From contig PNAS01000026.1 of assembly GCA_003169695.1 (NCBI GenBank), positions 62,001-126,000 on the forward strand: a stretch of DNA of 64,000 bases, in the 5' to 3' direction. How positions within the stretch are numbered: position 1 is the stretch's first letter; every line of letters begins with the position of its first letter. The notes beneath the pieces are model-generated. The model was not told the origin of the DNA. It ran no database searches and worked only from the letters and a program-made list of their open reading frames with translations. The DNA comes from Spartobacteria bacterium (GTDB taxonomy: Bacteria > Verrucomicrobiota > Verrucomicrobiia > Chthoniobacterales > UBA10450). Of this stretch, positions 4,816 to 60,779 are shown piece after piece. A program made the translations under genes and the position numbers.

Positions 4816-5889
4816 ATGTCCAATCCGATCTATGCGCTCATCCTCGCCGGAGGGAGTGGTGAACGCTTCTGGCCGCTGAGCCGCCGCGCTCGCCCGAAAC
4901 AACTCCTTCGTCTTGTCGCGGAAGAAACGCTGCTTGAACAAACGGTGGCCCGACTCGATGGCTTGATCCCGCGAGAGCGTCTTTTGATTTTGACGAATGT
5001 TGAACAGGAAGCCGCGGTTCGTGAGCTATTGCCTGCTCTGCCGAAGGAAAATATTGTTGCTGAACCGGCGAAACGCGATACGGCGGCGGCTGTTGCTCTC
5101 GGCGCGGGATGGGTCGCGGTCCGAGACCATTCCGCCACGATGATCGTGCTCCCCGCGGATCACGTCATTAAAGACACCGCGGCTTTCCAAAAAACCTTGA
5201 CGACGGCCGCGGCGGCAGCCGAAGAAACGGGCGCGCTCGTGACGATCGGCGTCAAACCGAGTTGGGCGTGCCCCGGCTTTGGTTACATTGAGCAAGGGGC
5301 CGCCGTGCGTCTCCGAAATGTTGCGCCCGAGGCCGCGGTTCACCATGTCGTTCGCTTCCGTGAAAAACCAAACGCGGATCTGGCCGAAAGCTTTCTTCGT
5401 AAGGGGAATTTTCGCTGGAATGCCGGAATGTTTGTCTGGTCTGTGCCGTCGGTGCTGAGCGAATTCAACCGGCACACCCCGGAGCTCGCAAGCTTCATCT
5501 CACAACTGCGCGCGCAGGATAATTTCGAAAAAACCGTGCGGGAGCGATTCACCAAACTTCCGAGAATCTCTTTCGACTATGCGATCATGGAGAAGGCCGA
5601 TCGGGTTCTGGTCGTCGAGGCGACTTTCGATTGGGATGACGTCGGGAGCTGGGGCGCGGTGGCGAAGTATTTCAAGAACGATGCGGAAGGCAACGCGGCC
5701 AATTGCGAGATCACGACCCTGGATTCGACGAACAACATTGTGTTTAATCCCGACGGCACGAGCATTGCGCTGCTCGGCGTTCATAATCTCATTATTGTTC
5801 GAACACCCGACGCTGTTTTGATCTGCCACCGCCATCAAGCCGAGAAGATCAAGAGCCTTGTCGGCAAACTTCCCGAGGCGCTGCAGTGA
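4816..5889 (+). CDS. manC: Mannose-1-phosphate guanylyltransferase
   Basis: Makes GDP-mannose from mannose-1-phosphate and GTP for surface polysaccharide and LPS sugars. The nucleotidyltransferase signature LILAGGSGERFWPLSR with PKQLL is at the N-terminus. IVLPADHVI and the FDYAIMEKADRV/DWDDVGSW motifs follow in the expected order. At 357 residues it is the short form without the phosphomannose isomerase domain found in bifunctional ManC. The stop overlaps the ruvX start by 4 bases (GTGA), and truA follows directly, so the three are probably co-transcribed. Confidence in the activity is high; the downstream glycan is unknown. Confidence 0.92.
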   Translation: MSNPIYALILAGGSGERFWPLSRRARPKQLLRLVAEETLLEQTVARLDGLIPRERLLILTNVEQEAAVRELLPALPKENIVAEPAKRDTAAAVALGAGWVAVRDHSATMIVLPADHVIKDTAAFQKTLTTAAAAAEETGALVTIGVKPSWACPGFGYIEQGAAVRLRNVAPEAAVHHVVRFREKPNADLAESFLRKGNFRWNAGMFVWSVPSVLSEFNRHTPELASFISQLRAQDNFEKTVRERFTKLPRISFDYAIMEKADRVLVVEATFDWDDVGSWGAVAKYFKNDAEGNAANCEITTLDSTNNIVFNPDGTSIALLGVHNLIIVRTPDAVLICHRHQAEKIKSLVGKLPEALQ

Positions 5890-6356
5890 GCAGTCTGCCG
5901 ATTCGACGGCGCATCCTGGGTGTGGACTTCGGCCGCGCGCGAATCGGGATCGCCGTGTCCGACGAGCTTGGTCTGCTCGCGCATCCGGTAAAAACGATTC
6001 CTGCGTCGCGCGATGCGGCGAAACAGATCGATGAAATCGTGCGCAAAAAAAATGTGGAGCGGGTCGTGATTGGATTACCTCGCCATATGAACGGCAGCGT
6101 GGGTGAAGCTGCCGGCGAGGCGCTCGCCTTCGCCGGGAAATTGCGGAAGCTGCTTCCGTGTGAGGTCGTGACGTGGGATGAGCGTCTCACGACGATCGCC
6201 GCGAATCGCGCCTTACGCGACCGCGGTCAAAAGACGCGAGATTCGAGGAACGTCGTCGATCAGGTGGCGGCGCAGATGATCTTGCAGGGATATCTCGACG
6301 GATTGCAAAGCGCGCGCGATCGCGGTCCAGAGCAAGTAGTTCGCCAAAGCGATTAA
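5886..6356 (+). CDS. ruvX: Putative Holliday junction resolvase / pre-16S rRNA nuclease RuvX (YqgF)
   Basis: RNase H-fold nuclease of the YqgF/RuvX family, needed for 16S rRNA 5'-end maturation and proposed to resolve Holliday junctions. GVDFGRARIGIAVSD at residues ~9-23 carries the first catalytic Asp. VIGLPRHMNGS and TWDERLTT supply the following conserved acidic residues, and VDQVAAQMILQ ends the fold. Length (156 aa) is normal. It starts with GTG overlapping the previous stop and ends immediately before the truA ATG. Confidence 0.92.
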   Translation: MSSLPIRRRILGVDFGRARIGIAVSDELGLLAHPVKTIPASRDAAKQIDEIVRKKNVERVVIGLPRHMNGSVGEAAGEALAFAGKLRKLLPCEVVTWDERLTTIAANRALRDRGQKTRDSRNVVDQVAAQMILQGYLDGLQSARDRGPEQVVRQSD

Positions 6357-7106
6357 ATGCCGTCGCGGCTCAAGCTGATCGTTTCCTACGACGGTGCGTC
6401 GTTTTCCGGATGGCAAAGCCAGGCGAACGGCAATACGATTCAAGACCGCTTGGAGAACGCTTTTCAGCGTATCTGTTCTGAGCCCGTACGGGTGCATGGC
6501 GCCGGGCGGACCGATGCCGGTGTCCATGCGCTGGCGCAGTGCGCGCACGTGGATTTGCCGAATCGCCGCTATAAACCTGATCGGTGGGTCTCCGCGCTGA
6601 ACGGACTCTTACCGCCAGCGATTCGCGTTATGCGGTGCCGGTTTGTTTCTGAGGCGTTTCACGCGCGATTTTCCGCGAAGGGAAAAACGTATCGTTACCG
6701 CATTTGGAATGCAGCTGTGCTCCCGCCGTTTGAAAGCGGTCGCGCCTGGCATGTCGTGAGTGCTCTCGACTTCGATAGCATCGTTCTTGCGGCGACAAAA
6801 TTCTGCGGTGAACATGATTTCGCCTCGTTCTCGGCGAACCGGGGAACACCCGAAACAAACACCGTCCGGATCATTCGCGCGGTCCGCCTCCGGCGCGCTG
6901 GTCCTTGCATTTCCATGGAGTTCGATGGTGATGGGTTCCTTTATAAGATGGTGCGAATGATGGCTGGGACACTCGTGCGCATTGGCCTCAACAGGTCATC
7001 TCTGCACGACATCAACGCGCGGCTTCGGTTGCCCCGAAAAGCCATTTCGTGCGGACGAACAGCGGCGCCGGCCAACGGATTATTTCTGGTCCGCGTCCGG
7101 TACTGA
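6357..7106 (+). CDS. truA: tRNA pseudouridine(38-40) synthase TruA
   Basis: Converts U38-U40 in the anticodon arm of many tRNAs to pseudouridine. The family core is clear: LIVSYDGASFSGWQSQ at the N-terminus, and GRTDAGVHALAQ with the catalytic Asp. It continues with FHARFSAKGKTYRYRIWN and FDGDGFLYKMVRMMAGTLV. Length (249 aa) is standard. It abuts ruvX with no gap, so translation is likely coupled. About 80 bases separate its stop from the next gene. Confidence 0.95.
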   Translation: MPSRLKLIVSYDGASFSGWQSQANGNTIQDRLENAFQRICSEPVRVHGAGRTDAGVHALAQCAHVDLPNRRYKPDRWVSALNGLLPPAIRVMRCRFVSEAFHARFSAKGKTYRYRIWNAAVLPPFESGRAWHVVSALDFDSIVLAATKFCGEHDFASFSANRGTPETNTVRIIRAVRLRRAGPCISMEFDGDGFLYKMVRMMAGTLVRIGLNRSSLHDINARLRLPRKAISCGRTAAPANGLFLVRVRY

Positions 7107-7187
7107 TTTTGCTTTCCTACCCCCGACGCTGGGGCGCGGCAGCGCGCTTCAGAGGTATGGCAGGATACCTGCTTTCTGGAATTTATA

Positions 7188-10100
7188 ATGACGCAGACCG
7201 ACGCGCCCAACTCAGCGATGAAGGTAGGTCGAGGGATTTTCGGACGAAGCGTCGCCTGGCTTTTCAGCCCAAAGCATTTTCATTTCAAGCTCTTGTCGGG
7301 GACCGCGGTTGGCATCGCCGTCATCACGTTCCTGGCGGGGCTTTTTCTTTTCATAACTCTGCGGAATCACCATCAAGAGACGTTGCGAGCGCATACGATC
7401 GAAGTCATGCGCCTCGGCGGTGTGATTGAGAACGACATCGCCGCGCTCGAAACCGGCCATCGCGGATTCCTGCTTACCGGCGAAAATTCGTACTTAGAGC
7501 CATTCGAACGTCGCCGCGAGCAGCTCAAACACCGAGTCGAAGATCTGACGGGCTTAATTCTGGACAGTCCGCCCCAACGTAAACGCGTAATGAAAATACA
7601 GGAGATTGTGCAGAAATGGCTCGACACAGTCGCCTTACCACAGATGAGCGCTCGGCAAATAAAAGGCGTTGCCGTCCTCACCGAACCCGCCGGCCATCCT
7701 TCCATTTCTCTCGGAAATTCATTACTCGATCAAGCCCGGGATATCCTTCAATCGCTGCAAAACGAGGAGCAGATTGTTCTCAACCAGCGCATGCAGGACC
7801 AGGAATGGGCCACGCAATCGACCCAAGTCCTCGACCTCCTGACAAAGCTCGAGCGTTCTTTGATTGAAATGCAAAAGGAAAAGAAGGGTTATCTCCTTAC
7901 GGGCGCCAGTAGCTTTGCGGAAGCGTACAAACGCGCGACGACCGACTTTTATACTTATCACGGATATCTCTCCATTCTCATCGCAAATTCACCCGAAGAG
8001 TCAGATGCCTTGACCGATATCCGCACGGGCGTCGAACGATGGATCGCGGCCTCCGCTGTTCCCGAGATGGAAGCGAAACGCACCGGGAGAGATTTTGCGG
8101 TCCTCCTCGGGACTAACAAGAGCGAAGCAATGATGACCGAGATTCGTCAGATGCTAAACACCTTCCAGACGAACGAGGCTGGCGTCTACGAGCTCCGCTC
8201 CAACGCCACGACTCGCGACCGCATCATCAAAACAACGGCGCTGGCGATTCTTTGCGTCTTCGCGGTTGGTCTGCTCATTGTTTCGAACAGTTACAGCTTC
8301 GTGCTGGTCCGCCGCCAGTTGGCAAAACTCGAAGGCGTCGAGACCCGAATCCGCTCCATCATCGAGAACATCCTGGACGGGATGATCACCGTGGATAAAC
8401 ACGGCGTGATCCGCTCAATGAATCCCTCCGCTGAGAAAATGTTCGGATGCATCAACAACGAGATGGTCGGTCACAAGTTCACAAAACTTGTTCCGAAATC
8501 CTATGGAAGCGAAGGGCAACCAGTTGCCTGCGCCTGGGATGATCTCGCGCGACAAACGGGAAGCACCACGTTGGCGGTCGGCCGGACGCGACGCCACGCG
8601 ACTTTCCCGATCGAGATTTCACTGAGCGAAATGGTGGTAGACAAGCAAAAACTCTACGTTGCCATGGTCCGCGACGTGACGGAGCGGAAGCGCTTCGAGT
8701 TGGAAATCGCGGCTGACAAAGAAAGTCTCGCGGTGACGTTGCGTTCCATCGAAGACGGCGTCATCACGACCGACGTGCAGGGCAAGATCATCATGATCAA
8801 CAAGGCCGGCGAAAACCTGACCGGCTGGTCCTCGCGCGAAGCGATTGGACAACCCCTCAAATCTGTTTTCAACATCGCGATCGATTTGGCCGCACAGGCC
8901 CGCGCTCAGAAGAGCGGTTATCGCAATGAGGCGCATTCCATTCTTCTCAGTATGCCTGAGAACGCGACTTTGAGGTCGCGCGAAGGGACCGAACGCGTAA
9001 TCGAACAGGTCGCCTCTCCTATTCGCGACAGCAAGAACGAAGTCGCCGGCGTGGTGCTTGTCTTCCGCGACATCACCGAACGCCAGCGCAACGAAGCCGA
9101 GCGACGCAAAGCCGAGACCCTGGAACAACTCGGCCTGCTCGCCGGCGGGATTGCGCACGATTTCAACAACCTCCTTACGGCGATTATCGGAAACATCTCG
9201 CTCGCGTCCTTGCTCCTCCCGCCAGACGATGAAATGGCGACACGGCTGAACGATGCGAAAAACGCCTCGTTGCGCGCCCGTGACCTGGCGCAGCAACTCC
9301 TTACCTTCGCGCGTGGCGGCGCACCGATTAAGAAAACTGCGTCAATCGGGAAACTCATCCAGGACACGGTCAGCTTCTCGCTGCGAGGCACGCACAGCCG
9401 AAGCGAGTTCTTGTTCGGCGCCGATCTCTGGCCCGCGGAAATCGATCCGGGACAGATCAGCCAGGTCGTTGCGAATCTCGTCGTGAACGCCGATCAAGCC
9501 ATGCCGTATGGCGGGACGCTTCGGGTTAGTTGCGATAATTTTAGCTACCATCCAGACACCGCCCCGGCCGTGCCCGACCTGCTTCCGGGCGATTACATTC
9601 GGATCGCCATTCGCGATGAAGGTGTGGGCATCCCAGAAAATTGCCTCAAACGAATTTTCGATCCTTACTTTACGACCAAGGCGAAAGGCAACGGCCTCGG
9701 ACTCGCGACGACCTATTCGATCATCAAGAATCACAACGGCCTCATCTGCGTCGATTCACAAATCCATTTCGGCTCCACCTTCACACTCTACCTTCCCGCC
9801 TCCAAGTATCAGGAAATGCCGGTCGAGCCACCGCGCCAGCTCAACCAAGTGATTTCGGGGACGGGAAGCATCCTCATTGTGGATGACGAGGAAGCGATCC
9901 GCGCTCTTGTGGAGTTCACGCTCGAGCGCCTCGGCTATCAAGTGACGCAGGCGGAAAGCGCACTCGAAGGGGTGGAAATTTACCGGCAAAAACTCGAAGC
10001 GGGCGAGCGTTTCGACGCCGTCATTCTCGATCTCACGCTTCCTGGCGGGATGGGTGGCAAGGAGGCGTTGAAAAAATTGATCGAGATCGATCCCACCGTG

Positions 10101-50591: not shown

Positions 50592-52379
50592 ATGTCTATT
50601 CCCAGCACATCAGCACGCGCCACGAAGCGTTTTTGCCTGATCCTCGTTAAGCCGTCGCATTACGATGACGACGGGTATGTGATCCAGTGGTTCCGCTCGA
50701 CGATTCCGTCGAATTCGCTGGCGGCGGTATATGGGCTGGCGAGGGATTGCGCGCAGCGGCATGTGCTGGGCGACGACGTGGAGATCGAGATTCATCCGTT
50801 CGATGAAACGAATACGCGGATCCGGCCGGAAAAATTGGCGCGGATGATCGAGATGGCGGGCGCGGGGATGGTGATGATGATCGGGGTGCAATCGAACCAG
50901 TTCCCGCATGCGCTCGACCTGGCGCGGCCGCTCCGGGAGCGCGGGATCCAGGTAGGGATCGGCGGGTTCCATGCTTCGGGAATCCTGAGCATGATGGGCG
51001 GTAATGACGTCGACCTTCACAAGGCGAAGGCGATGGGCGTGATGATTTTTGCCGGGGAAGCGGAAGGACGCATGGAGCTGGTGCTCAAGGACGCCTTCGA
51101 GAACAAGCTCAAGCCGCTTTACAATTTCATGGCGGACCTGCCGAACATCGAGGGCGAACCGCTGCCGCTCATCCCGGCGATTCGCGCGGCGCGGACGGCA
51201 GGCGCGGTGACGAGCTTCGACGCGGGACGCGGTTGCCCGTTCCAATGTTCGTTTTGCACGATCATCAACGTCCAGGGACGGAAGTCGCGGCGCCGATCGG
51301 CGGACGACGTGGAGCGGCTCATTCGCGAAAACGTGGCGCAGGGATTGAACCGCTTCTTTATTACGGACGACAATTTTGCCCGGAACAAGGATTGGGAAAA
51401 AATCCTCGACCGGCTGATTCACCTGCGACTGAACGAGAAGATCAAGCTGTCGTTCCTGATCCAGGTGGACACGCTCTGCCATAAGCTGCCAAATTTTATC
51501 GAGAAATGCGCCGCGGCCGGAGTGAAGCGGGTTTACATCGGGCTGGAGAATATTAACCCGGACAGCCTGGCGGGCGCGCACAAGCGACAGAACAAGATCA
51601 CGGAGTATCGGAAGATGCTTCAGGCTTGGAAGAAGGCGCGGATCATTACGTATTGCGGCTACATCCTCGGGTTCCCGAACGACACGCCGGAATCGATCAT
51701 CCGCGACGTGGAGATCGTGAAGAAGGAATTGCCACTCGATATCCTGGAGTTCTTTTTCCTGACGCCGTTGCCGGGCTCGGAGGATCACCAGACGCTGGTG
51801 AACTCCGGAGTGGTGGTCGATCCCGACCTGAACAAGTACGATCTCAACCACGTCTGCGCGCCGCATCCGAAGATGTCCCGCGAAGATTGGGAGCGAGTCT
51901 ATCGCAAAGCCTGGGAGACGTATTACACGGATGAGCACATGGAAGCGGTGATACGCCGCCTGGTCTCGAGACAGGCCCCGGCCAGCAACGCCATCATGCT
52001 GATCGCCTGGTTCTGGGGCGCAATTCAGATCGAGAAAATTCATCCGCTCGAAACCGGGTTGTTCCGCTACAAATTCCGACGCGATCGCCGGCCGGGGTTG
52101 CCGATCGAGCCGATCTGGAAGTTTTATCCGAAATACGCCGTGGAATCGGTAGTGAAGCTTGGAAAATGGGCGGTGTTGTATGGCCGGCTGCGCGCCATCT
52201 ACGTCCGGGTCAAGAAGGATCCGAAGAAGCTCGAATACATGGACCTCGCGATGACTCCGGTGACCGACGATGAGGATATGGAGATGTTTCACACGCCATC
52301 GGCGCCCGCGTTTATCGCGCAGGAGCAGCGGCGGCAGCATGCGCACGAGCATAAGCACGAGCATGCGGCGGTAGCGTAG
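50592..52379 (+). CDS. Cobalamin-binding-type radical SAM protein (copy 1)
   Basis: 595 residues. An N-terminal Rossmann-like region of the B12-binding radical SAM layout (~10-190) ends with GIQVGIGGFHASG. The radical SAM cluster motif CxxxCxxC is GCPFQCSFCTI at ~214-224, followed by ITDDNFARN, YIGLENINPDSL and FPNDTPESI. No DxHxxG cobalamin motif is seen, so B12 may not be bound in the usual way. The C-terminus is His-rich (QHAHEHKHEHAA), a possible metal site. It is closely similar to the gene at 53267-55045 along its full length. Substrate unknown; related proteins modify lipids, hopanoids or phosphonates. The stop TAG lies in a GTAG followed by a GGACGTCC palindrome. Confidence 0.85.
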   Translation: MSIPSTSARATKRFCLILVKPSHYDDDGYVIQWFRSTIPSNSLAAVYGLARDCAQRHVLGDDVEIEIHPFDETNTRIRPEKLARMIEMAGAGMVMMIGVQSNQFPHALDLARPLRERGIQVGIGGFHASGILSMMGGNDVDLHKAKAMGVMIFAGEAEGRMELVLKDAFENKLKPLYNFMADLPNIEGEPLPLIPAIRAARTAGAVTSFDAGRGCPFQCSFCTIINVQGRKSRRRSADDVERLIRENVAQGLNRFFITDDNFARNKDWEKILDRLIHLRLNEKIKLSFLIQVDTLCHKLPNFIEKCAAAGVKRVYIGLENINPDSLAGAHKRQNKITEYRKMLQAWKKARIITYCGYILGFPNDTPESIIRDVEIVKKELPLDILEFFFLTPLPGSEDHQTLVNSGVVVDPDLNKYDLNHVCAPHPKMSREDWERVYRKAWETYYTDEHMEAVIRRLVSRQAPASNAIMLIAWFWGAIQIEKIHPLETGLFRYKFRRDRRPGLPIEPIWKFYPKYAVESVVKLGKWAVLYGRLRAIYVRVKKDPKKLEYMDLAMTPVTDDEDMEMFHTPSAPAFIAQEQRRQHAHEHKHEHAAVA

Positions 52380-52394
52380 GGACGTCCCTTCTCT

Positions 52395-52463
52395 TGTAGG
52401 GCGTTTCTGTGAAACGCCACCATCGAACGACCTGTAGATGGCGTCTGACACAGACGCCCTACA
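52395..52463. repeat. REP pair (REPIN) with GTAG heads
   Basis: Left arm: GTAG + GGCGTTTC-tgt-GAAACGCC (perfect 8-bp hairpin). Right arm on the other strand: GTAG + GGCGTCTG-to-CAGACGCC hairpin. The arms are inverted and ~20 bases apart. A GTAG tetranucleotide at the foot of an imperfect palindrome is the classic substrate layout for REP-associated tyrosine transposases, one of which starts 130 bases downstream. Confidence 0.85.
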
Positions 52464-52490
52464 ATGCGGCGATGCGACCGGCCCCACAAC

Positions 52491-52511
52491 GGACGGCTTG
52501 GAGAGCCGTCC
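52491..52511. repeat. Hairpin repeat GGACGGCT-N5-AGCCGTCC
   Basis: A perfect 8-bp stem with a 5-base loop, 84 bases upstream of the transposase start. It is a third hairpin type in the REP cluster. On the minus strand it is preceded by GCAG rather than GTAG. Confidence 0.65.
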
Positions 52512-52525
52512 CTGCCTTTCCCCAT

Positions 52526-52578
52526 CCTCGTTCCCAAACTCTGTTTGGGAACGCACTTGTCCGAAGAAACTCCGTTTC
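52526..52578 (-). repeat. REP element left of the transposase (inverted copy)
   Basis: CCTCGTTCCCAAACTCTGTT+TGGGAACG hairpin followed by GAAACTCCGTTTC. It is the inverse orientation of the REP at 53136-53188, so the two bracket the transposase gene. The inner hairpin has drifted (GAAAC rather than GCAAC). Confidence 0.8.
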
Positions 52579-52594
52579 TCATCCTCCCGAACGC

Positions 52595-53128
52595 GTGCGC
52601 AGTCGCTATCGCATCAACAATCAAAGCTCCGCGCATTTCATCACTTCGACCATTGTCGAGTGGCTCCCAGTCTTCACGACAGCGGCGTGCTGCGATATCC
52701 TCGTGCGCTCGTTGGAGTATTGTCGTCGGGAGAAAGGTCTGCGCGTCCACGCTTGGGTAATTCTCGACAATCATTTCCACGCCATCGTGTCCGGGCTGCA
52801 ATTAGCGCGCACTGTGGCGGACCTCAAGAAATTCACGGCTCACGAGATTCTCGGTCAGCTTAAGCTTGAAGGTCGCGATTGGTTGCTGAATCAGCTGGAA
52901 TTCTTCCGCGCGGCTCACAAGCGCGAGAGCACTCATCAAGTCTGGCAAGAAGGCGTTCATCCACAATCCATCGCGAGCGATCAGATGATGCTGCAGAAAC
53001 TTGAATATCTGCACAACAATCCCGTGAAGCGCGGACTGGTGGCATCGCCGGAGCACTGGCGCTATTCGTCGGCGCATGAATGGTTGACGGGCGCTGTTCC
53101 TGCGATGCGTGTTGATCCCTGGCGATAG
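52595..53128 (+). CDS. REP-associated tyrosine transposase (RAYT, TnpA-REP)
   Basis: About 177 residues from a GTG at 52595 (VRSRYRINNQ). The HUH-type metal motif His-hydrophobic-His is in ILDNHFHAIVSG. Downstream are FTAHEILGQL, HQVWQEGVHPQSI and the family's C-terminal signature KLEYLHNNPVKRGLVA and HWRYSSAHEW. Single-domain Y1-type transposases of this kind cut and join REP sequences as single strands. They are usually single-copy and vertically kept rather than spreading like IS200. No accessory orfB is present. REPs of three types surround it. It lies between the two radical-SAM copies. The frame is open upstream to 52409 through REP sequence, which I consider untranslated. Confidence 0.88.
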   Translation: MRSRYRINNQSSAHFITSTIVEWLPVFTTAACCDILVRSLEYCRREKGLRVHAWVILDNHFHAIVSGLQLARTVADLKKFTAHEILGQLKLEGRDWLLNQLEFFRAAHKRESTHQVWQEGVHPQSIASDQMMLQKLEYLHNNPVKRGLVASPEHWRYSSAHEWLTGAVPAMRVDPWR

Positions 53129-53135
53129 GGAAGAG

Positions 53136-53188
53136 CGCAACTGAGTTGCGAAGATAAGTGCGTTCCCAAACAGAGTTTGGGAACGAGG
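53136..53188 (+). repeat. REP element right of the transposase
   Basis: GCAACTGAGTTGC hairpin (53137-53149), 11-base spacer, then CGTTCCCAAACAGAGTTTGG+GAACGAGG hairpin. It begins 8 bases after the transposase stop and ends 31 bases before the promoter-like block of the second radical-SAM gene, so it serves both as the transposase's right-hand REP and as part of the duplicated cassette. Confidence 0.82.
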
Positions 53189-53219
53189 AGGCGGAGACGA
53201 AGGGCGAGGCAATTTTGCC

Positions 53220-53244
53220 TGTCGAGGATCGCTGCATTGTGTAT
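53220..53244 (+). promoter_or_regulatory. Conserved promoter-like block, second radical-SAM gene
   Basis: TGTCGAGG-N8-ATTGTGTAT, the same two words and spacing as at 50511-50535, preceded by TTTTGCC. It lies 22 bases before the ATG at 53267, closer to its gene than in copy 1. Confidence 0.5.
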
Positions 53245-53266
53245 GGTGGGGCGTTTGGAAACCGTG

Positions 53267-55045
53267 ATGCCGACCCCGACTACATCCGCGCGCGGAATGA
53301 AGCGTTTTTGCCTCGTTCTCGTCAAGCCGTCTCACTATGACGACGACGGCTACGTGATCCAATGGTTTCGTTCCACGATTCCGTCCAATTCGCTGGCGGC
53401 AGTCTTTGGCCTGGCTCGCGATTGCGCCGAGCGCCACGTCCTCGGCGATGATGTCGAACTGGAGATCCATCCTTTTGACGAGACGAACACCCGCATCCGT
53501 CCGGAGCGCCTGGCGCGCATGATCGAAGAGGCCGGCGCGGGCATGGTGATGATGGTCGGCGTGCAATCGAATCAGTTCCCGCACACGCTCGACCTCGCGA
53601 AGCCGCTGCGCGAGCGCGGCATTCAAGTCGGGATCGGCGGTTTCCATGTCTCCGGGACGATGAGCATGCTCGGCGGCAACGATCCCGATCTCCATCGCGC
53701 CAAGGCGATGGGCATCTCGCTTTTTGCCGGTGAAGCGGAAGGGCGTCTTGAGCAAGTGTTGCAAGATGCCTTCGAGAAAAAACTTAAGCCGCTCTACAAC
53801 TACATGGCGGATTTGCCCGGCATCGAAGGGTCGCCCATCCCGATTATCACTGCTGTGCGCGCTGCACGCACCGCCGGCGGCATCACCAGCTTTGACGCGG
53901 GACGCGGCTGTCCGTTCCAATGTTCGTTCTGCACCATCATCAATGTCCAGGGTCGAAAATCGCGCCGCCGTTCGCCCGACGACATCGAGGCGATCGTGCG
54001 CGCGAACGTGGCGCAGGGGCTGCACCACTTCTTCATCACCGACGACAATTTTGCACGGAACAAAGATTGGGAGCCGATCCTCGATCGCCTCATTCGCCTG
54101 CGTTCGGTCGAGAAGATCAAGTTGTCTTTCCTCATCCAAGTGGACACGCTTTGCCATAAGCTTCCGAATTTTATCGAGAAATGCGCCGCGGCGGGGGTGA
54201 AGCGGGTGTTCATCGGACTGGAGAACATCAACCCCGACAGTCTGGCCGGCGCACATAAGCGGCAGAACAAGATTACGGAGTACCGCAAGATGCTCCTCGC
54301 CTGGAAGACCGCGAGGATCATCACCTACGCCGGCTACATCACCGGCTTTCCGAACGACACGGTGGAATCCATCAGGAGTGACATCGAGATCATCAAGAAG
54401 GAATTGCCGGTCGATCTGCTGGAGTTCTTTTTCCTGACGCCGCTGCCGGGTTCGGAAGATCACCAAAAACTGGTCAACGCCGGAGTCGTGATCGATGCGG
54501 ACTTGAACCGATACGATCTCAATCACACTTGCGCCCCGCATGCGAAGATGTCGCGCGAAGATTGGGAGCGGGCTTACCAGACGGCGTGGGAGACTTATTA
54601 CACCATGGAACATATGGAGACGGTGTTGCGCCGGTTGATGGCGAAGAAGGCGAGTGGGAGCAATGCCATCCTGCTGATCACCTGGTTCATGGGCTCGATC
54701 CACATCGAGAAGATTCACCCGCTCGAGAGCGGCTTCCTGCGCTTGAAGTTCCGGCGTGACCGCCGGCCCGGGCTGCCGATTGTGCCGAGGTGGAAGTTCT
54801 ATCCGGGCTACATCGTGGAATCCGCGGCAAAGCTCGCCCGGTGGGTGTCTCTCTATTTTGGGCTGCGGCGCATCTACGTGCGAATCAAGAAAGACCCGCG
54901 CAAGCTCCAATACATGGACCTCGCGCTCAGTCCCGTAACCGATCATGACGTGGACGATCTCGAGATGTTCCACACGCCTTCGGCGCCGGCGTTTGTCGCG
55001 CAGGAGCAGCGGCGGCAGCATGTTCACGAGCATGCGGCGGCGTAG
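53267..55045 (+). CDS. Cobalamin-binding-type radical SAM protein (copy 2)
   Basis: 592 residues, collinear with copy 1. It has the same N-terminal region (LVKPSHYDDDGYVIQWFRST), the same CxxxCxxC (GCPFQCSFCTI), DNFARNKDW and FIGLENINPDSLAG. The His-rich tail is shorter (QHVHEHAA). The N-terminal leader, TESI/PESI segment and C-terminal 100 residues vary most. The ATG at 53267 (MPTPTTSARG) aligns with the start of copy 1; the frame is open upstream only through REP sequence. The stop TAG is again within GTAG followed by a GGTGGCGCCACG palindrome. Confidence 0.85.
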   Translation: MPTPTTSARGMKRFCLVLVKPSHYDDDGYVIQWFRSTIPSNSLAAVFGLARDCAERHVLGDDVELEIHPFDETNTRIRPERLARMIEEAGAGMVMMVGVQSNQFPHTLDLAKPLRERGIQVGIGGFHVSGTMSMLGGNDPDLHRAKAMGISLFAGEAEGRLEQVLQDAFEKKLKPLYNYMADLPGIEGSPIPIITAVRAARTAGGITSFDAGRGCPFQCSFCTIINVQGRKSRRRSPDDIEAIVRANVAQGLHHFFITDDNFARNKDWEPILDRLIRLRSVEKIKLSFLIQVDTLCHKLPNFIEKCAAAGVKRVFIGLENINPDSLAGAHKRQNKITEYRKMLLAWKTARIITYAGYITGFPNDTVESIRSDIEIIKKELPVDLLEFFFLTPLPGSEDHQKLVNAGVVIDADLNRYDLNHTCAPHAKMSREDWERAYQTAWETYYTMEHMETVLRRLMAKKASGSNAILLITWFMGSIHIEKIHPLESGFLRLKFRRDRRPGLPIVPRWKFYPGYIVESAAKLARWVSLYFGLRRIYVRIKKDPRKLQYMDLALSPVTDHDVDDLEMFHTPSAPAFVAQEQRRQHVHEHAAA

Positions 55046-55253: not shown

Positions 55254-56849
55254 ATGAAGCGCTTCGCATTTTTGCTGTCCGCTTTGCTGTACTTGAATGG
55301 GGGAGAAATTCAGGCGCAGCAGAGGACCGTGCCACCGCCGCCTGGAGCGACGTCTGTTGCCACGCCCACTCCGGCAGCGCCGCAGACCCTTATCCAGGCC
55401 CCTGCTGTCGCGACGCGTCCGAACGGCAAGATCCAGAAAAGTTTGGTCCGCATCACGGCGACGGAAGTCGAGCCGGATTACAGAGCGCCCTGGAACTCGG
55501 GCGCAATTCAGCGGGGCATCGGCGCGGGCTTTGTGATCGAGGGCAACCGCATCATGACCAATGCGCATGTGGTCAGCAACAGCCGTTACCTCACCGTGGA
55601 GCGCGATGGGGATCCGAATAAATACCCGGCGACGGTTCTCTTTGTCGCGCATGACTGCGATCTGGCGCTCCTCAAGGTTGCATCCCCGAACTTTTTCAAG
55701 AACATGACGCCGCTAACCTTCGGTGGGATCCCGGAACTCGAGGCGGTCGTGTCGGCCTACGGTTATCCTCTCGGTGGCGAGCGAATGTCAGTGACCACCG
55801 GCATTGTGTCGCGAATCGATTTCCAGCCCTACACGCACTCTTCGATCGACCAGCATCTCGCGATCCAGATCAGCGCGCAGATCAATCCTGGCAACAGCGG
55901 CGGGCCCGTGATGCAAAATGCGAAAGTGGTCGGCGTGGCGTTTCAAGGATATAGCGGCGACGTCGCGCAAGGCGTCGCATATATGATTCCCACGCCGGTG
56001 ATTCAACGCTTTCTCTCGGACATCAAGGACGGGCACTACGACAAGTACGTGGATCTCGGGCTCACTTACACGAAGCTTCAGAATCCTGCGCAGCGCCATT
56101 TTCTTGGCTTAAAAGATGACGATCGCGGTGTGCTCGTGGGCACCGTGATCGCCGCCGGCCCATCCGCAAAAAGCGTGCAGTCAGGCGACGTGCTTCTCTC
56201 GATCGACGATCATCCCATCGCGAGCGACGCGACGGTCGAGCTCGAAGGCGAGTCTGTCGAAATGCCGGAAGTAGTCGAGCGGAAATTCAAAGGCGACGTG
56301 GTAAAAATCGAGCTCTTGCGAGACAAAAAACCGGTCACCGTCAGCCTCGAGCTCGGATCGGTTTGGCCCTATGCCTACCTCGCCCACACTTATGATGTGC
56401 GCCCGCGTTACGTTGTCTATGGGGGCCTGTTGTTTCAGCCGCTCACGCTCGATCTGGTCGACGCGTATCAACCGACCGACATCCGCATCCGGCATTATTT
56501 TGATTATTTCGTCACGGAGCAAATTTACCTGGAGCACCCTGAAGTAATCGTCCTGACGAACATTCTGCCCGATCCGACTAACAGTTATCTCGCCCCCTAC
56601 CGGGCCAGCATCGTGGACGAGATCAACGGCCAAAAAATCCGAACGTTGACTGACCTGGCCAAGGCTTTCTCAGAAACGCCAGATCGCTTTGTCGTTCGTA
56701 TGATCGGCGACGGACCTCCGCTCGTGCTTGATCCGAAAGAGGTGGAGTCCGCGCGGGAGAGAATCAAAACGCGTTACAACGTCGTCTCGGAACAAAACCT
56801 GGAAGACCAGCCGGCCAGGCCCACGCCAGTCGATCAAAACAAAACCTGA
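55254..56849 (+). CDS. HtrA/Deg-like secreted serine protease with PDZ domains
   Basis: 531 residues with a signal peptide (RFAFLLSALLYLNGG) and a Pro-rich linker. The trypsin-like domain (~60-255) keeps the full triad: His in IMTNAHVVS (~104), Asp in HDCDLALLKV (~135) and Ser in INPGNSGGPVM (~214). Two PDZ-like parts follow (~270-370 and ~430-510; GVLVGTVIAAGPSAKSVQSGDVLL, shown as GPSAKSVQSGDVLL, and IVDEINGQKIRTLTDLA). Expected to be periplasmic, degrading misfolded proteins or processing a specific target. The stop shares its last base with the ATG of a paralogue, so the two are made together. The start ATG follows a modest purine-rich stretch. Confidence 0.9.
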   Translation: MKRFAFLLSALLYLNGGEIQAQQRTVPPPPGATSVATPTPAAPQTLIQAPAVATRPNGKIQKSLVRITATEVEPDYRAPWNSGAIQRGIGAGFVIEGNRIMTNAHVVSNSRYLTVERDGDPNKYPATVLFVAHDCDLALLKVASPNFFKNMTPLTFGGIPELEAVVSAYGYPLGGERMSVTTGIVSRIDFQPYTHSSIDQHLAIQISAQINPGNSGGPVMQNAKVVGVAFQGYSGDVAQGVAYMIPTPVIQRFLSDIKDGHYDKYVDLGLTYTKLQNPAQRHFLGLKDDDRGVLVGTVIAAGPSAKSVQSGDVLLSIDDHPIASDATVELEGESVEMPEVVERKFKGDVVKIELLRDKKPVTVSLELGSVWPYAYLAHTYDVRPRYVVYGGLLFQPLTLDLVDAYQPTDIRIRHYFDYFVTEQIYLEHPEVIVLTNILPDPTNSYLAPYRASIVDEINGQKIRTLTDLAKAFSETPDRFVVRMIGDGPPLVLDPKEVESARERIKTRYNVVSEQNLEDQPARPTPVDQNKT

Positions 56850-58354
56850 TGCGAGCTTTCCGTTTCAGTCTCGCCCTCATCGGCGTTCTTCTCCTACCGC
56901 TCGGGATGTTTGCAGCGCCCAAAAAAGAACCGGGCCCTGCAACTGTGGTGAAGCCGAAGGAGCTTTCACTGGTGCGGGTCAATGTCACCGGGCAACCATA
57001 CGACTACGTGCGGCCATGGCAGAAGCGGGCGGCCTTTTCAAAACGTGCTTTGGGCGCGGTGCTGCCGCAAGGCCGCGTCCTTGTCACGGCGGATCTGGTT
57101 GCGAATCAAAATTACGTCGAGCTGGAGCGCGCGGAGTCTGGCGAAAAGACCGGGGCTAATGTGGTGGTCGCTGATTATGAAGCGAATCTGGCGCTTCTGG
57201 AGCCCACCGACAAAAAATTCCTGAACGGCCTCACGCCACTTCAGCTTGCGCTCGATACGGTGGTCGGCGATCGCCTCGCGGCGTGGCAGCTCGAAGCCAC
57301 CGGCGCGCTCGTTGGCACCGAAGGACTCGTGACCACAATCCAGATGACCCGTTACCCGGCGGATCTGGGCCAGTTTCTGACTTATCGCATCAGCATCTCG
57401 ATGCAGTACCGCGATAACAGCTACACCGTCCCGCTCGTCAAGAATAACAAGCTCGCCGGTTTGCTCCTGCGGTTCGATCCGAGAACTCAGGTGCTCGACG
57501 CGATCCCGGCTCCGATTATCGCGCATTTCTTGAAAGACGCGGAGACGCAGCATTACCGCGGCTTCCCCTCCGCGGGATTCGGGTTTTTCCCCACGCGTGA
57601 TCCGCAGCTGCGCAGTTTCGCGGGGCAAAGCGGCAAAGCCGCCGGCGTCTACGTGACAAGCATCGAACCACACATGCCGGCAGCCAAAGCCGGTTTGAAA
57701 GTTGGCGATATTGTTGTCGGCGTCGGCAACAATGAGATCGATCAAAATGGGAACTACGTCGATCCGCTCTATGGGAAAATCGAGTTTACGAATCTGATCA
57801 CCGCGCGCGCTTTTGCGGGCGATACCATGCCGGTGCAAATTCAACGCGAGGGCAAGACGATGCAGTTGAATCTTGCGCTCGATCATCGCGCCGCGGATGA
57901 CTACGTGATCCCGCCCTACAACATCGATCGGGCGCCGCTCTATTACGTTCTCGGCGGGCTGATTTTTCAGGAATTGTCCCGGCAATTCCTCCGGGAATGG
58001 GGCGCGAACTGGCTGAAAGATGCGCCACAGCGCTTCGTCTATAAGGATCGATTCCAATCGGAGCTCTACCCGGAAGGGAACCGCCGGGTGGTGGTTCTGA
58101 CTCAGGTCCTCCCGGCGAATAGCACGATCGGCTACGATGATCTGGCGTATCTGACGGTTACCAAGATTAATGGCAAGGAAATCAAGTCGCTGGCGGATTT
58201 GGCGGAAGCCGTAAAGCAGCCGCTGGACGGTTTCATCAAGATCGAGACGGAAGAAGATCCGAAGCAGATCGAGCTCGAAGCAGCGCAAGTGGAGGCGGAA
58301 GCGGCGGCTCTTCAGCAGAATTACGGTCTGCCATCTCTGCAGCGGCTCGAGTAG
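56849..58354 (+). CDS. Secreted HtrA-like pseudoprotease with PDZ domains
   Basis: 501 residues with a signal peptide (FSLALIGVLLLPLGMFAA). It aligns with the upstream protease throughout, but the catalytic signatures are gone: TNAHVV is VTADLV (His to Asp), DCDLALLKV is YEANLALLE (Asp to Asn), and GNSGGPV is DNSYTVPLV (no oxyanion loop). PDZ-like parts remain (VYVTSIEPHMPAAKAGLKVG and VTKINGKEIKSLADLAEAV). It is probably a non-catalytic partner, adaptor or inhibitor of the upstream enzyme. The C-terminus adds a Glu/Ala helix (ELEAAQVEAEAAALQQ). The ATG overlaps the previous TGA by one base. Confidence 0.85.
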   Translation: MRAFRFSLALIGVLLLPLGMFAAPKKEPGPATVVKPKELSLVRVNVTGQPYDYVRPWQKRAAFSKRALGAVLPQGRVLVTADLVANQNYVELERAESGEKTGANVVVADYEANLALLEPTDKKFLNGLTPLQLALDTVVGDRLAAWQLEATGALVGTEGLVTTIQMTRYPADLGQFLTYRISISMQYRDNSYTVPLVKNNKLAGLLLRFDPRTQVLDAIPAPIIAHFLKDAETQHYRGFPSAGFGFFPTRDPQLRSFAGQSGKAAGVYVTSIEPHMPAAKAGLKVGDIVVGVGNNEIDQNGNYVDPLYGKIEFTNLITARAFAGDTMPVQIQREGKTMQLNLALDHRAADDYVIPPYNIDRAPLYYVLGGLIFQELSRQFLREWGANWLKDAPQRFVYKDRFQSELYPEGNRRVVVLTQVLPANSTIGYDDLAYLTVTKINGKEIKSLADLAEAVKQPLDGFIKIETEEDPKQIELEAAQVEAEAAALQQNYGLPSLQRLE

Positions 58355-59318: not shown

Positions 59319-60779
59319 CTAGTCTTCTCCTCCTCTTTCGATCATCGATTGTTGCCCGGCCCCGGCGGACCGCGGCGGCCGCGGGTGCGACAAAAACTTC
59401 GCGACCTCCGCCCTGTAGTCCTCGAATGGGTTGCCCATCACGAGAAAATCGCGGTTATCGCACGCGATCGAATCCCAATTGATCACGTAGGGTTGATCTC
59501 TTTTCTGAAACCACGCGACGGCCTGCGCGCGACCGGCCGCGCGTGTATTCGCGGGCGGATGATAGCTCGCCTCCTTCCGGCGCACGCTGTTGTTCCATTC
59601 GCCGATTCGTTTCGCTGGGTTCACCCCAAAGAAGAGCCCTTTCTCGGAATCAATGTTATGATACTCGAGATCCAAACTTTGGAGCCACGGATCGTTCCAA
59701 CCAATCCCCTCGGCTTCCATAAACGCTTCCAGCAGCCATTTCTTGGTAATCCAATCCACGCCTCCGATGAGCGATTCCGGTTTGTTGCCCAAAGCCTCAA
59801 GAGTGAAACTCCAGCTCTCGAGAAGCCAATCGGTTTCCTCGTTGGCGCCGCCGAGATGTTTGTGCGCCAGCTCGTAGAATTGCCACTGAATGTCGAGACC
59901 ACCGATCGTCTTGCCATTTTCGAGCCGCACGATCCAGGCGCCCGTCGGATCGCGAGAAATGTCGCGCGTGCTCTGCACTGCATCGCTCAGACTGAGATTC
60001 TTTGGCAGGCGGCCGTCTTCGAGCAGCGACAAGACGCAAGCAGTGGTTCCAATTTTTAGCGCGGTCGCAAACGGACTCATATTGGAATCGCCGATGAGAA
60101 GATGGAGCCGCCGGTATTTTCGATAATCGGCGAGCGGTTCGTCGCGGGCGTTGATAATGGCGCGATTGAACTGCACCCACTGGTAGATGTCGTTCACGAT
60201 GTGATCGGCGCGCTGGCTGAGTTGAAAATCCACGTGGACCTCCGGCTGCGGCAGTTGGAAGTCGAACGCGAGAGGGTTCGCCTGCCCCACGCGGCCCGCG
60301 CCCGTGAAAATCTGGCGGGTAGCGAGGAAAGCCAGCAATGTGCCGAGCACCGGCGGCGTGAATTGCGCCTCGCGCTTCATCAAGTAATTCTCGTGGCAGC
60401 CGAAGGTCGCGCCGGTGTTGTGATCAATGTTGTTCTTGATGAATGAAACGCGGTCGGCCGCATCGAGCGACTCGAGGGCCGATTGAAGCAGTTGATCGCC
60501 GGCGACGTCGTAAGCCACCACATCACGCAGGTGCAGACACTCCGGCGACGCGTACTCGATATGCCCCATGTCGAGATAGAGGCGGCCGCCATTAAGGAGG
60601 AAACCGCCGTTGCCCGGAGGTTCCTCGTAATCCCGGTAATGCAGATCGATGGCGCCGGCCTCCGCCTTCCGAAACAGGAAATTTTTCACCCTGACCGGCC
60701 AGGCATCAGTATGTCCGCGCCCGTCTTCTCCGCTGACGAGGCAACCATATTCCGTTTCGATTCCGGCGACGCGATCCAT
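59319..60779 (-). CDS. dop: Dop/PafA-family Pup or UBact ligase/deamidase homologue
   Basis: 486 residues of the carboxylate-amine ligase fold that attaches or removes prokaryotic ubiquitin-like proteins. GIETEYG near the N-terminus carries the catalytic Glu. Further marks are NGGRLYLDMGHIEYASPEC, FIKNNIDHNTGATFGCHENY, TGAGRVG, FQLSQRADHI, and INARDEPLADYRKYRRLH with LIGDSNMS. The wording is closer to Dop than PafA, but in non-actinobacterial (UBact) systems the split is less clear. No Pup/UBact, proteasome subunit or Mpa/ARC gene is within the window. The last codons spell a strong Shine-Dalgarno (AGAGGAGGAGA) with no gene right behind it. Confidence 0.85.
   Translation of the reverse strand: MDRVAGIETEYGCLVSGEDGRGHTDAWPVRVKNFLFRKAEAGAIDLHYRDYEEPPGNGGFLLNGGRLYLDMGHIEYASPECLHLRDVVAYDVAGDQLLQSALESLDAADRVSFIKNNIDHNTGATFGCHENYLMKREAQFTPPVLGTLLAFLATRQIFTGAGRVGQANPLAFDFQLPQPEVHVDFQLSQRADHIVNDIYQWVQFNRAIINARDEPLADYRKYRRLHLLIGDSNMSPFATALKIGTTACVLSLLEDGRLPKNLSLSDAVQSTRDISRDPTGAWIVRLENGKTIGGLDIQWQFYELAHKHLGGANEETDWLLESWSFTLEALGNKPESLIGGVDWITKKWLLEAFMEAEGIGWNDPWLQSLDLEYHNIDSEKGLFFGVNPAKRIGEWNNSVRRKEASYHPPANTRAAGRAQAVAWFQKRDQPYVINWDSIACDNRDFLVMGNPFEDYRAEVAKFLSHPRPPRSAGAGQQSMIERGGED

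Follow-up and report, generated by a model that had tools for sequence, protein, structure and literature searches.

An intact Deg-type protease gene and an adjoining pseudoprotease paralogue form an old, ordered pair in Verrucomicrobiota

What does a protease paralogue do once its catalytic centre is gone, and why is it kept beside an active relative? This question is raised by two tandem genes, here called A and B, at positions 55254–58354 of a 64,000-nucleotide stretch of DNA from Spartobacteria bacterium (contig PNAS01000026.1, positions 62,001 to 126,000; the whole stretch is referred to as the window). A encodes a Deg/HtrA protease of the S1C family with an intact triad, and B a full-length paralogue in which the triad is degenerate. 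The data presented below strongly support a lasting functional link between A and B. On balance, with a confidence only a little above even, B was interpreted as the non-catalytic partner of A in an ancient, presumably exported Deg9/Deg2-like pair, acting most likely through a mixed oligomer.

The two genes and their parts were located in the window as follows.

55254–56849, + strand: gene A, Deg/HtrA (S1C) protease of 531 amino acids with intact triad, protease-PDZ-PDZ_3 (open reading frame, Pfam, nearest structures, triad)
55254–55319, + strand: A, presumed Sec signal peptide, residues 1–22 (sequence reading and hydropathy only)
55521–55937, + strand: A, Trypsin_2 domain, residues 90–228 (Pfam)
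55566–55568, + strand: A, catalytic His105 (sequence, alignment)
55659–55661, + strand: A, catalytic Asp136 (sequence, alignment)
55896–55898, + strand: A, catalytic Ser215 in NPGNSGG (sequence, alignment)
56109–56354, + strand: A, PDZ_2 domain, residues 286–367 (Pfam)
56385–56792, + strand: A, PDZ_3 domain, residues 378–513 (Pfam)
56847–56851, + strand: TGATG stop-start junction, in which the adenine at 56849 is the last base of TGA and the first of ATG (by eye)
56849–58354, + strand: gene B, pseudoprotease paralogue of 501 amino acids, degenerate protease-PDZ-PDZ_3 (open reading frame, Pfam, AlphaFold2, Foldseek)
56849–56914, + strand: B, presumed Sec signal peptide, residues 1–22 (sequence reading and hydropathy only)
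57092–57094, + strand: B, Asp82 at the His place (alignment; Glu or Asp in 99 of 116 B rows)
57185–57187, + strand: B, Asn113 at the Asp place (alignment; Asn in 114 of 116 B rows)
57419–57424, + strand: B, Ser191-Tyr192, former nucleophile loop (the residue at the Ser place varies with the aligner)
57632–57880, + strand: B, PDZ_2 domain, residues 262–344 (Pfam)
57908–58336, + strand: B, PDZ_3 domain, residues 354–496 (Pfam)

The His-Asp-Ser triad, the GNSGG loop and a trypsin-like domain followed by PDZ domains place A among the HtrA/Deg (S1C) proteases, and A is apparently a working quality-control enzyme of this kind. Trypsin_2 was matched in A with E 3.1e-24 and in B with 14.6 bits, under the cut-off of 27.6, and the PDZ_2 and PDZ_3 domains were matched in both. 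The two proteins share 27% identity over 443 aligned columns and a hydrophobic N-terminus according to the hydropathy score. The first-pass annotation, made from the letters of the window, had described a complete triad upstream and, downstream, Asp for His, Asn for Asp and a missing GNSGG loop in a protein that keeps its PDZ parts and an undamaged frame; each of these residues was found at its place, the loop of B reading YRDNSYTVPL where A has INPGNSGGPV. The one-base overlap of the genes that it had reported was likewise seen at the junction, and no Shine-Dalgarno-like stretch was recognised by eye just 5' of it.

B thus lacks the triad of an active HtrA/Deg protease (Asp82, Asn113 and the altered loop), the position of Ser being uncertain. 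Profile-profile comparison (hhalign) and phmmer against Deg9 aligned Ser191 of the 'DNS' in B to the catalytic Ser; with BLASTP and in the large MAFFT alignment, Tyr192 took that place. Judged from the sequence, the loss of His, Asp and the oxyanion loop is sure and that of Ser is not.

Relatives of the pair were collected at several levels. A match to B was present in 79 of 83 genomes of the window's family, in 218 of 384 genomes of a class draw (at least two matches in 199, one in 19) and in 112 of 288 genomes of a phylum-wide draw that overlaps the class set; each match counted here may be B, A or a lone relative. Eighty stretches were fetched around matches of the class draw, the family and the window's own genome, beyond the loci already supplied, and 40 from the phylum draw, 38 of them outside the class (L152 and L153 lie within it). 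A scan of named genomes added the best 80 of 359 matching stretches (loci L174–L253); the titles of these 80 named Verrucomicrobia, Spartobacteria, Chthoniobacterales and kin, or the Planctomycetes-Verrucomicrobia-Chlamydiae (PVC) group, the best match (91%) was a Spartobacteria metagenome-assembled genome, and Chthoniobacter flavus Ellin428 was among them. The A and B rows analysed below come from fetched loci, mostly the better matches, with the classification of second matches limited to the fetched class genomes and the window's genome counted twice in the family and class alignment. The fetched stretch contained no A at seven loci, three of them (L035, L117 and L076) at contig ends and four (L100, L103, L104 and L122) with the genes unlinked. 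The label A or B followed the higher profile score, which would favour the label A for any protein with a triad, so that the statement that no live B exists in the set rests also on gene position and the tree.

In the 109 A rows of the family, order and class, His and Asp were each present in 106 of 106 covering rows and Ser in all 109. Among the 116 B rows, the His place was occupied by Glu in 55, Asp in 44, Ala in 6, Gln in 6 and Ser, Arg, Thr or Asn in one each, with one gap, which means no catalytic His in the 115 rows covering the site. The Asp place was Asn in 114 rows, Gly in one and Asp in one, and ranked within the 3% least variable B columns by entropy. The Ser column held Phe (53), Tyr (47), Ala (6), Trp (5), Leu (2) and single Thr, Ser and Gly, with a Ser one position ahead in 95 rows. 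The named loci gave the same picture: A kept His, Asp and Ser at all covered sites (71, 71 and 74 of 75 rows), the exception being the truncated, misaligned row of L252, and B had Asn in 80 of 80 rows and no His in the 79 rows covering the site. Twenty further tandem loci of the phylum were all arranged as a live gene followed by a dead one, the upstream gene carrying the complete triad in 20/20 and the downstream gene lacking Ser in the Ser column in 20/20; in L150 and L151 a Ser stood one place before this column, like in the window. The genome survey proposed in the first-pass annotation returned the same pair with the same kind of losses through the phylum, which argues that the observation is not due to chance. 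B homologues retaining the triad, which that annotation had named as speaking against its interpretation, were looked for and none was found in the family, class, phylum and named loci.

The Deg9-like gene of the lone-gene loci of the phylum had the complete triad in 20 of 20 cases; the contigs of L157 and L173 stop soon after the gene, so that a B might have been lost at the edge, and the genome of L167 also holds the tandem pair L143. The window's own genome holds a third Deg-like gene, at L003 (G000:C11:2600-3910), which has an intact triad and was scored best by the lone-gene profile.

The residue counts could also be read as those of an enzyme with an altered centre composed of Ser191, Glu/Asp and Asn, as Ser at the Ser191 place (95/116), an acidic residue at the His place (99/116) and Asn (114/116) recur and the profile alignment sets Ser191 on the catalytic Ser. 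However, His is missing, the GNSGG oxyanion loop is replaced and the B proteins of other loci carry different residues, such as GEG in L134 and GWS in L113. To our knowledge, no S1-family protease works without His, and such an activity of B was considered very improbable.

The ancestry of the two proteins was examined in a tree of 123 proteins, which was unrooted with an unsure root and came from a quick search with the Shimodaira-Hasegawa-like approximate likelihood ratio test (SH-aLRT) and without bootstrap. B formed one clade of 50 rows (SH-aLRT 100), A (50 rows) needed two label changes, and the lone genes (21) needed one, with a support of 68. The origin of B by simple tandem duplication of A is compatible with these sequence relations but not proven by them. 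The ratio of nonsynonymous to synonymous substitutions (dN/dS, Nei-Gojobori) relative to the window was 0.043–0.101 for B (16 computable of 19 relatives) and 0.045–0.117 for A (18 computable of 19); dS was at least 0.9 in every comparison, near saturation, so these values are rough and, if anything, too high. The signs of neutral decay that the first-pass annotation had allowed for were thus not seen, B falling in the same low range as A. Conserved loss of catalytic residues combined with purifying selection is the pattern of a functional pseudoenzyme, and B, an old family under selection, very probably has a function.

B could also be a decaying duplicate without function, and its protease domain is more variable than that of A (mean column entropy 2.00 vs. 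1.08). Broken frames were also noticed in two draft-genome loci, in B of L076 and in A of L244, possibly owing to assembly errors. Given the dN/dS of 0.04–0.10, the phylum-wide retention, the frames that are open in most of the matches listed and the confident predicted fold, the probability of decay was regarded as negligible.

By sequence, the nearest solved structures to both A and B were plant Deg2 (4fln) and Deg9 (5il9), matching most of the length. The AlphaFold2 model of mature B, built with 39 relatives from named genomes, had a mean predicted local distance difference test score (pLDDT) of 91.0 and a predicted template modelling score (pTM) of 0.87. In the Foldseek comparison with the PDB, this model was matched to Deg9 5il9_A (query TM-score, TMq, 0.87; root-mean-square deviation 2.6; 475 columns; 25% identity) and Deg2 4fln_B (TMq 0.86). 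The model thus showed a Deg2/Deg9-like protease and two-PDZ fold over the whole length and, being confident, indicates by prediction that B is a complete Deg-type protein and not a remnant. Deg2 and Deg9 differ from B in being active proteases, B having no triad. Both plant proteins are homo-oligomeric.

In all 108 loci with both genes, A and B were on the same strand with A first. A tblastn search (1e-10) for six genes that flank the pair in the window recovered none of them next to it in the 77 loci L054–L130 or in the 20 loci L134–L153 (flanks of up to about 4 kb per side, less at contig ends), and the window's own neighbour genes recurred only in its family; the absence of these genes near the pair elsewhere indicates that the adjacency of A and B outlives its context. 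Within the class draw, B lacked an A match only at contig edges (G351, G379, G413 and G448) and in G297. Conversely, 14 class genomes had a live gene and no B, and in 13 of them this gene was scored best by the lone-gene profile (by 17–49 bits). When A was sought in 11 of the 166 class genomes without a B match, ten gave none at 1e-20 and the remaining one, G150, gave a weak match to a different HtrA.

Exceptions to the linkage were found in nine genomes, eight of one genus and G139 (L276/L296). The two genes of G279 (L281/L288) lie on a single contig at 2.03 and 3.59 Mb, and in the other genomes they are on different contigs, with no A in the full 1.5-kb flanks of B. In all nine, A had the complete triad and B had no His; some of the A matches list internal stops, and the open frames used were at least 488 amino acids long and covered the triad. 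At one further locus, L243, about 2.4 kb separate A from B.

These exceptions are in line with another possibility, that B acts apart from A as an exported PDZ adaptor, chaperone or ligand-binder and that adjacency reflects shared regulation only. Both genes are kept in the nine genomes in spite of being unlinked, the PDZ regions of B are nearly as conserved as those of A (mean column entropy 2.08 and 2.00 vs. 1.80 and 1.95, that is 2.00 vs. 1.95 for PDZ_3), and excerpts of PMC4794232 describe for MamO, the degenerate partner of the magnetosome protease MamE, a metal-binding role separate from MamE activation. The near-absence of B without A in the class draw and the persistence of adjacency and order while neighbourhoods change argue in the other direction, which makes an independent B rather unlikely.

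Two further ideas were rejected. Open frames of 1,033–1,100 amino acids at L118 and L060, taken at first for A-B fusions, are stop-free stretches overlapping A in another frame. No conserved third operon gene was found, the largest neighbour clusters being read as shadow frames of A and B.

The favoured interpretation, a partnership of B with A, may be outlined as follows. A would carry out proteolysis, and B, with the full protease-PDZ-PDZ_3 body and no catalytic machinery, would most likely join A in a mixed oligomer through the retained scaffold, proposed to consist of the PDZ domains and the N-terminal segment with its invariant Pro-Trp, a segment that builds the oligomer in HtrA structures. 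In such an oligomer, B could activate A, position it or pass on substrates. Physical contact, the mixed oligomer and the effect of B, whether activation, restraint or substrate delivery, are what we infer from the pair. The C-terminus of B, YGLPxLxRL, was also considered as a PDZ ligand for A and dropped, as it is homologous to the end of the PDZ_3 domain of A and the tails are variable elsewhere; similar B ends recur in the window's order.

Several observations do not favour this partnership. When an A-B chain read through the stop was modelled with 11 paired rows from in-frame named loci, pLDDT was 72.6 and pTM 0.56, with no confident docking, an outcome that counts neither for nor against contact; the roughly 70–80 effective sequences for about 930 columns of A and B are too few for inter-protein covariation. 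In other loci of the phylum the B site holds unrelated residues, in some cases a single His or Asp (the B protein of L134 has both His and Asp, with Glu for Ser), so that no one sequence of the altered site applies throughout, and the His and Ser places of B, at the 35th and 39th entropy percentile, are not exceptionally conserved. The higher entropy of the B protease domain given above belongs here too. B was nearer to the lone-gene group than to A in the unrooted tree, and the correlation of 0.964 between A and B distances over 109 pairs is what common descent alone predicts. One class genome, G400 (L256), has a true A but no B, neither in the 1.5 kb that follow A nor in any other place that the search reached. 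Finally, the genes overlap by one or four bases in 36 of 108 pairs (12 one-base, 24 four-base) and are separated by a gap in others, as counted with start codons from a simple heuristic score that passed over overlapping starts in L006, L068 and L109. The near 1:1 synthesis deduced from the overlap in the first-pass annotation could not be upheld in general, since unlinked pairs and variable spacing mean that coupled 1:1 synthesis is not required. Chthoniobacter flavus Ellin428, a cultured organism, has an overlapping TAATG junction (L250).

The overlapping genes would suit an inhibitor made together with its target, and B could then restrain A, as a mixed-in or decoy subunit lowering the activity until stress or substrate frees the enzyme. 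The resting state of Deg2 is reportedly locked by an internal PDZ ligand. However, the data give no preference for restraint over activation, and MamO, the closest precedent that has been tested, activates its partner; restraint as the role of B was judged unlikely.

Published systems, compared here as described in excerpts of the respective papers, show how far such a partnership has precedents. MamE and MamO are, like A and B, an HtrA protease and a trypsin-like paralogue with a degenerate triad, and MamE-dependent processing requires MamO but not MamO's own active-site His; the pairing of active and inactive HtrA proteins arose repeatedly in magnetotactic bacteria (PMC4794232). They differ from the window's tandem genes of Deg9 type in being magnetosome genes, with a TauE-like domain in MamO. 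The NCBIfam models of MamE and MamO (cut-offs 800) gave 72 and 36 bits for A, the MamE model gave 21 bits for B and no match of the MamO model to B was listed at E up to 1, which leaves A and B outside the MamO family.

The plant protease Deg7 has the layout of A plus B, protease-PDZ-PDZ followed by an inactive protease-PDZ-PDZ, and in AtDeg7 the inactive half reportedly plays a part in trimerisation (PMC3473262). By description, Deg7 is one chain (1,108 amino acids in Chlamydomonas; PMC3473262), whereas the window encodes two proteins, the A and B open reading frames being in different frames.

In Leptospira, LIC20143, an HtrA protease with a triad, is followed in one operon by LIC20144, called a PDZ-only protein, and their co-expression was speculated to serve regulation; for a second couple, LIC11112/LIC11111, a heterodimer was proposed (PMC7709667). 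The excerpted text of PMC7709667 does not mention a degenerate protease domain in LIC20144. Locus L254 (NZ_CP020413.2) is likely the LIC20143/LIC20144 counterpart, as an adenine phosphoribosyltransferase gene adjoins it. Its proteins fell into the A and B families, with His-Asp-Ser in Leptospira A and Ser-Asn-Phe at the triad places of B, and the gene at 5800–7383, annotated only as PDZ domain-containing, encodes a full-length B-family member with a degenerate protease region. In the tree, Leptospira A was located inside a 42-row A set (support 96), and Leptospira B adjoined the B of non-class loci (92) on a long branch. A plasmid collection contained three matching records, two of Leptospira interrogans (two places each) and one of Sulfurovum; the one L. 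interrogans record examined holds the pair and the Sulfurovum record a lone gene.

Another parallel is provided by Deg5 and Deg8, which are plant genes and form no operon. These are two HtrA paralogues in one compartment, Deg5 reportedly having no casein-degrading activity, and the excerpts of PMC3640471 describe triad residues for both, a difference from B.

The first-pass annotation had held a protease with a pseudoprotease partner to be a new arrangement for this family. With MamE/MamO (PMC4794232), Deg7 (PMC3473262) and the Leptospira operon (PMC7709667) in print, the arrangement of the window is not new in kind. No paper on the Verrucomicrobial pair was found in the literature searched, most subscription journals and all preprints being outside its reach, and the depth, the constant polarity and the recognition of this pair appear to be new.

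A broader proposal can be put forward tentatively, as a conceivable though doubtful extension: that envelope quality control in Verrucomicrobiota and Leptospira uses an obligate hetero-oligomeric Deg machine, half of its subunits being pseudoproteases in which the old active site has taken on the task of sensing substrate or of driving the activation of the live subunits. This would be a two-gene counterpart of Deg7, wider in distribution than the magnetosome pair. Control of HtrA enzymes by pseudoproteases has so far been known from a few special cases. A pair whose order and state were the same in every tandem locus examined, and of which a cultured member exists, would turn such control into a general mode that can be tested directly. 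A further suggestion is that pseudoproteases can go unrecognised among proteins that carry only the annotation 'PDZ domain-containing' and are encoded next to an S1C protease.

Some other genes lie close to the pair in the window. On the 3' side, past a GDSL-lipase gene and on the opposite strand, a gene at 59319–60779 (- strand) encodes a Dop- or PafA-like member of the Pup-ligase family (PF03136, E 1e-125). Of the 181 loci compared, 41 had this gene, and none of the 41 belonged to L054–L130 or L134–L153. On the 5' side, two very similar proteins, as seen by eye, are encoded on the + strand at 50592–52379 and 53177–55045, the latter carrying a Radical_SAM domain. The open reading frame at 52409–53128 between them encodes what looks, by its motif, like a REP-associated tyrosine transposase, and stretches translating to 'SFPNSVWER' are repeated around both upstream genes.

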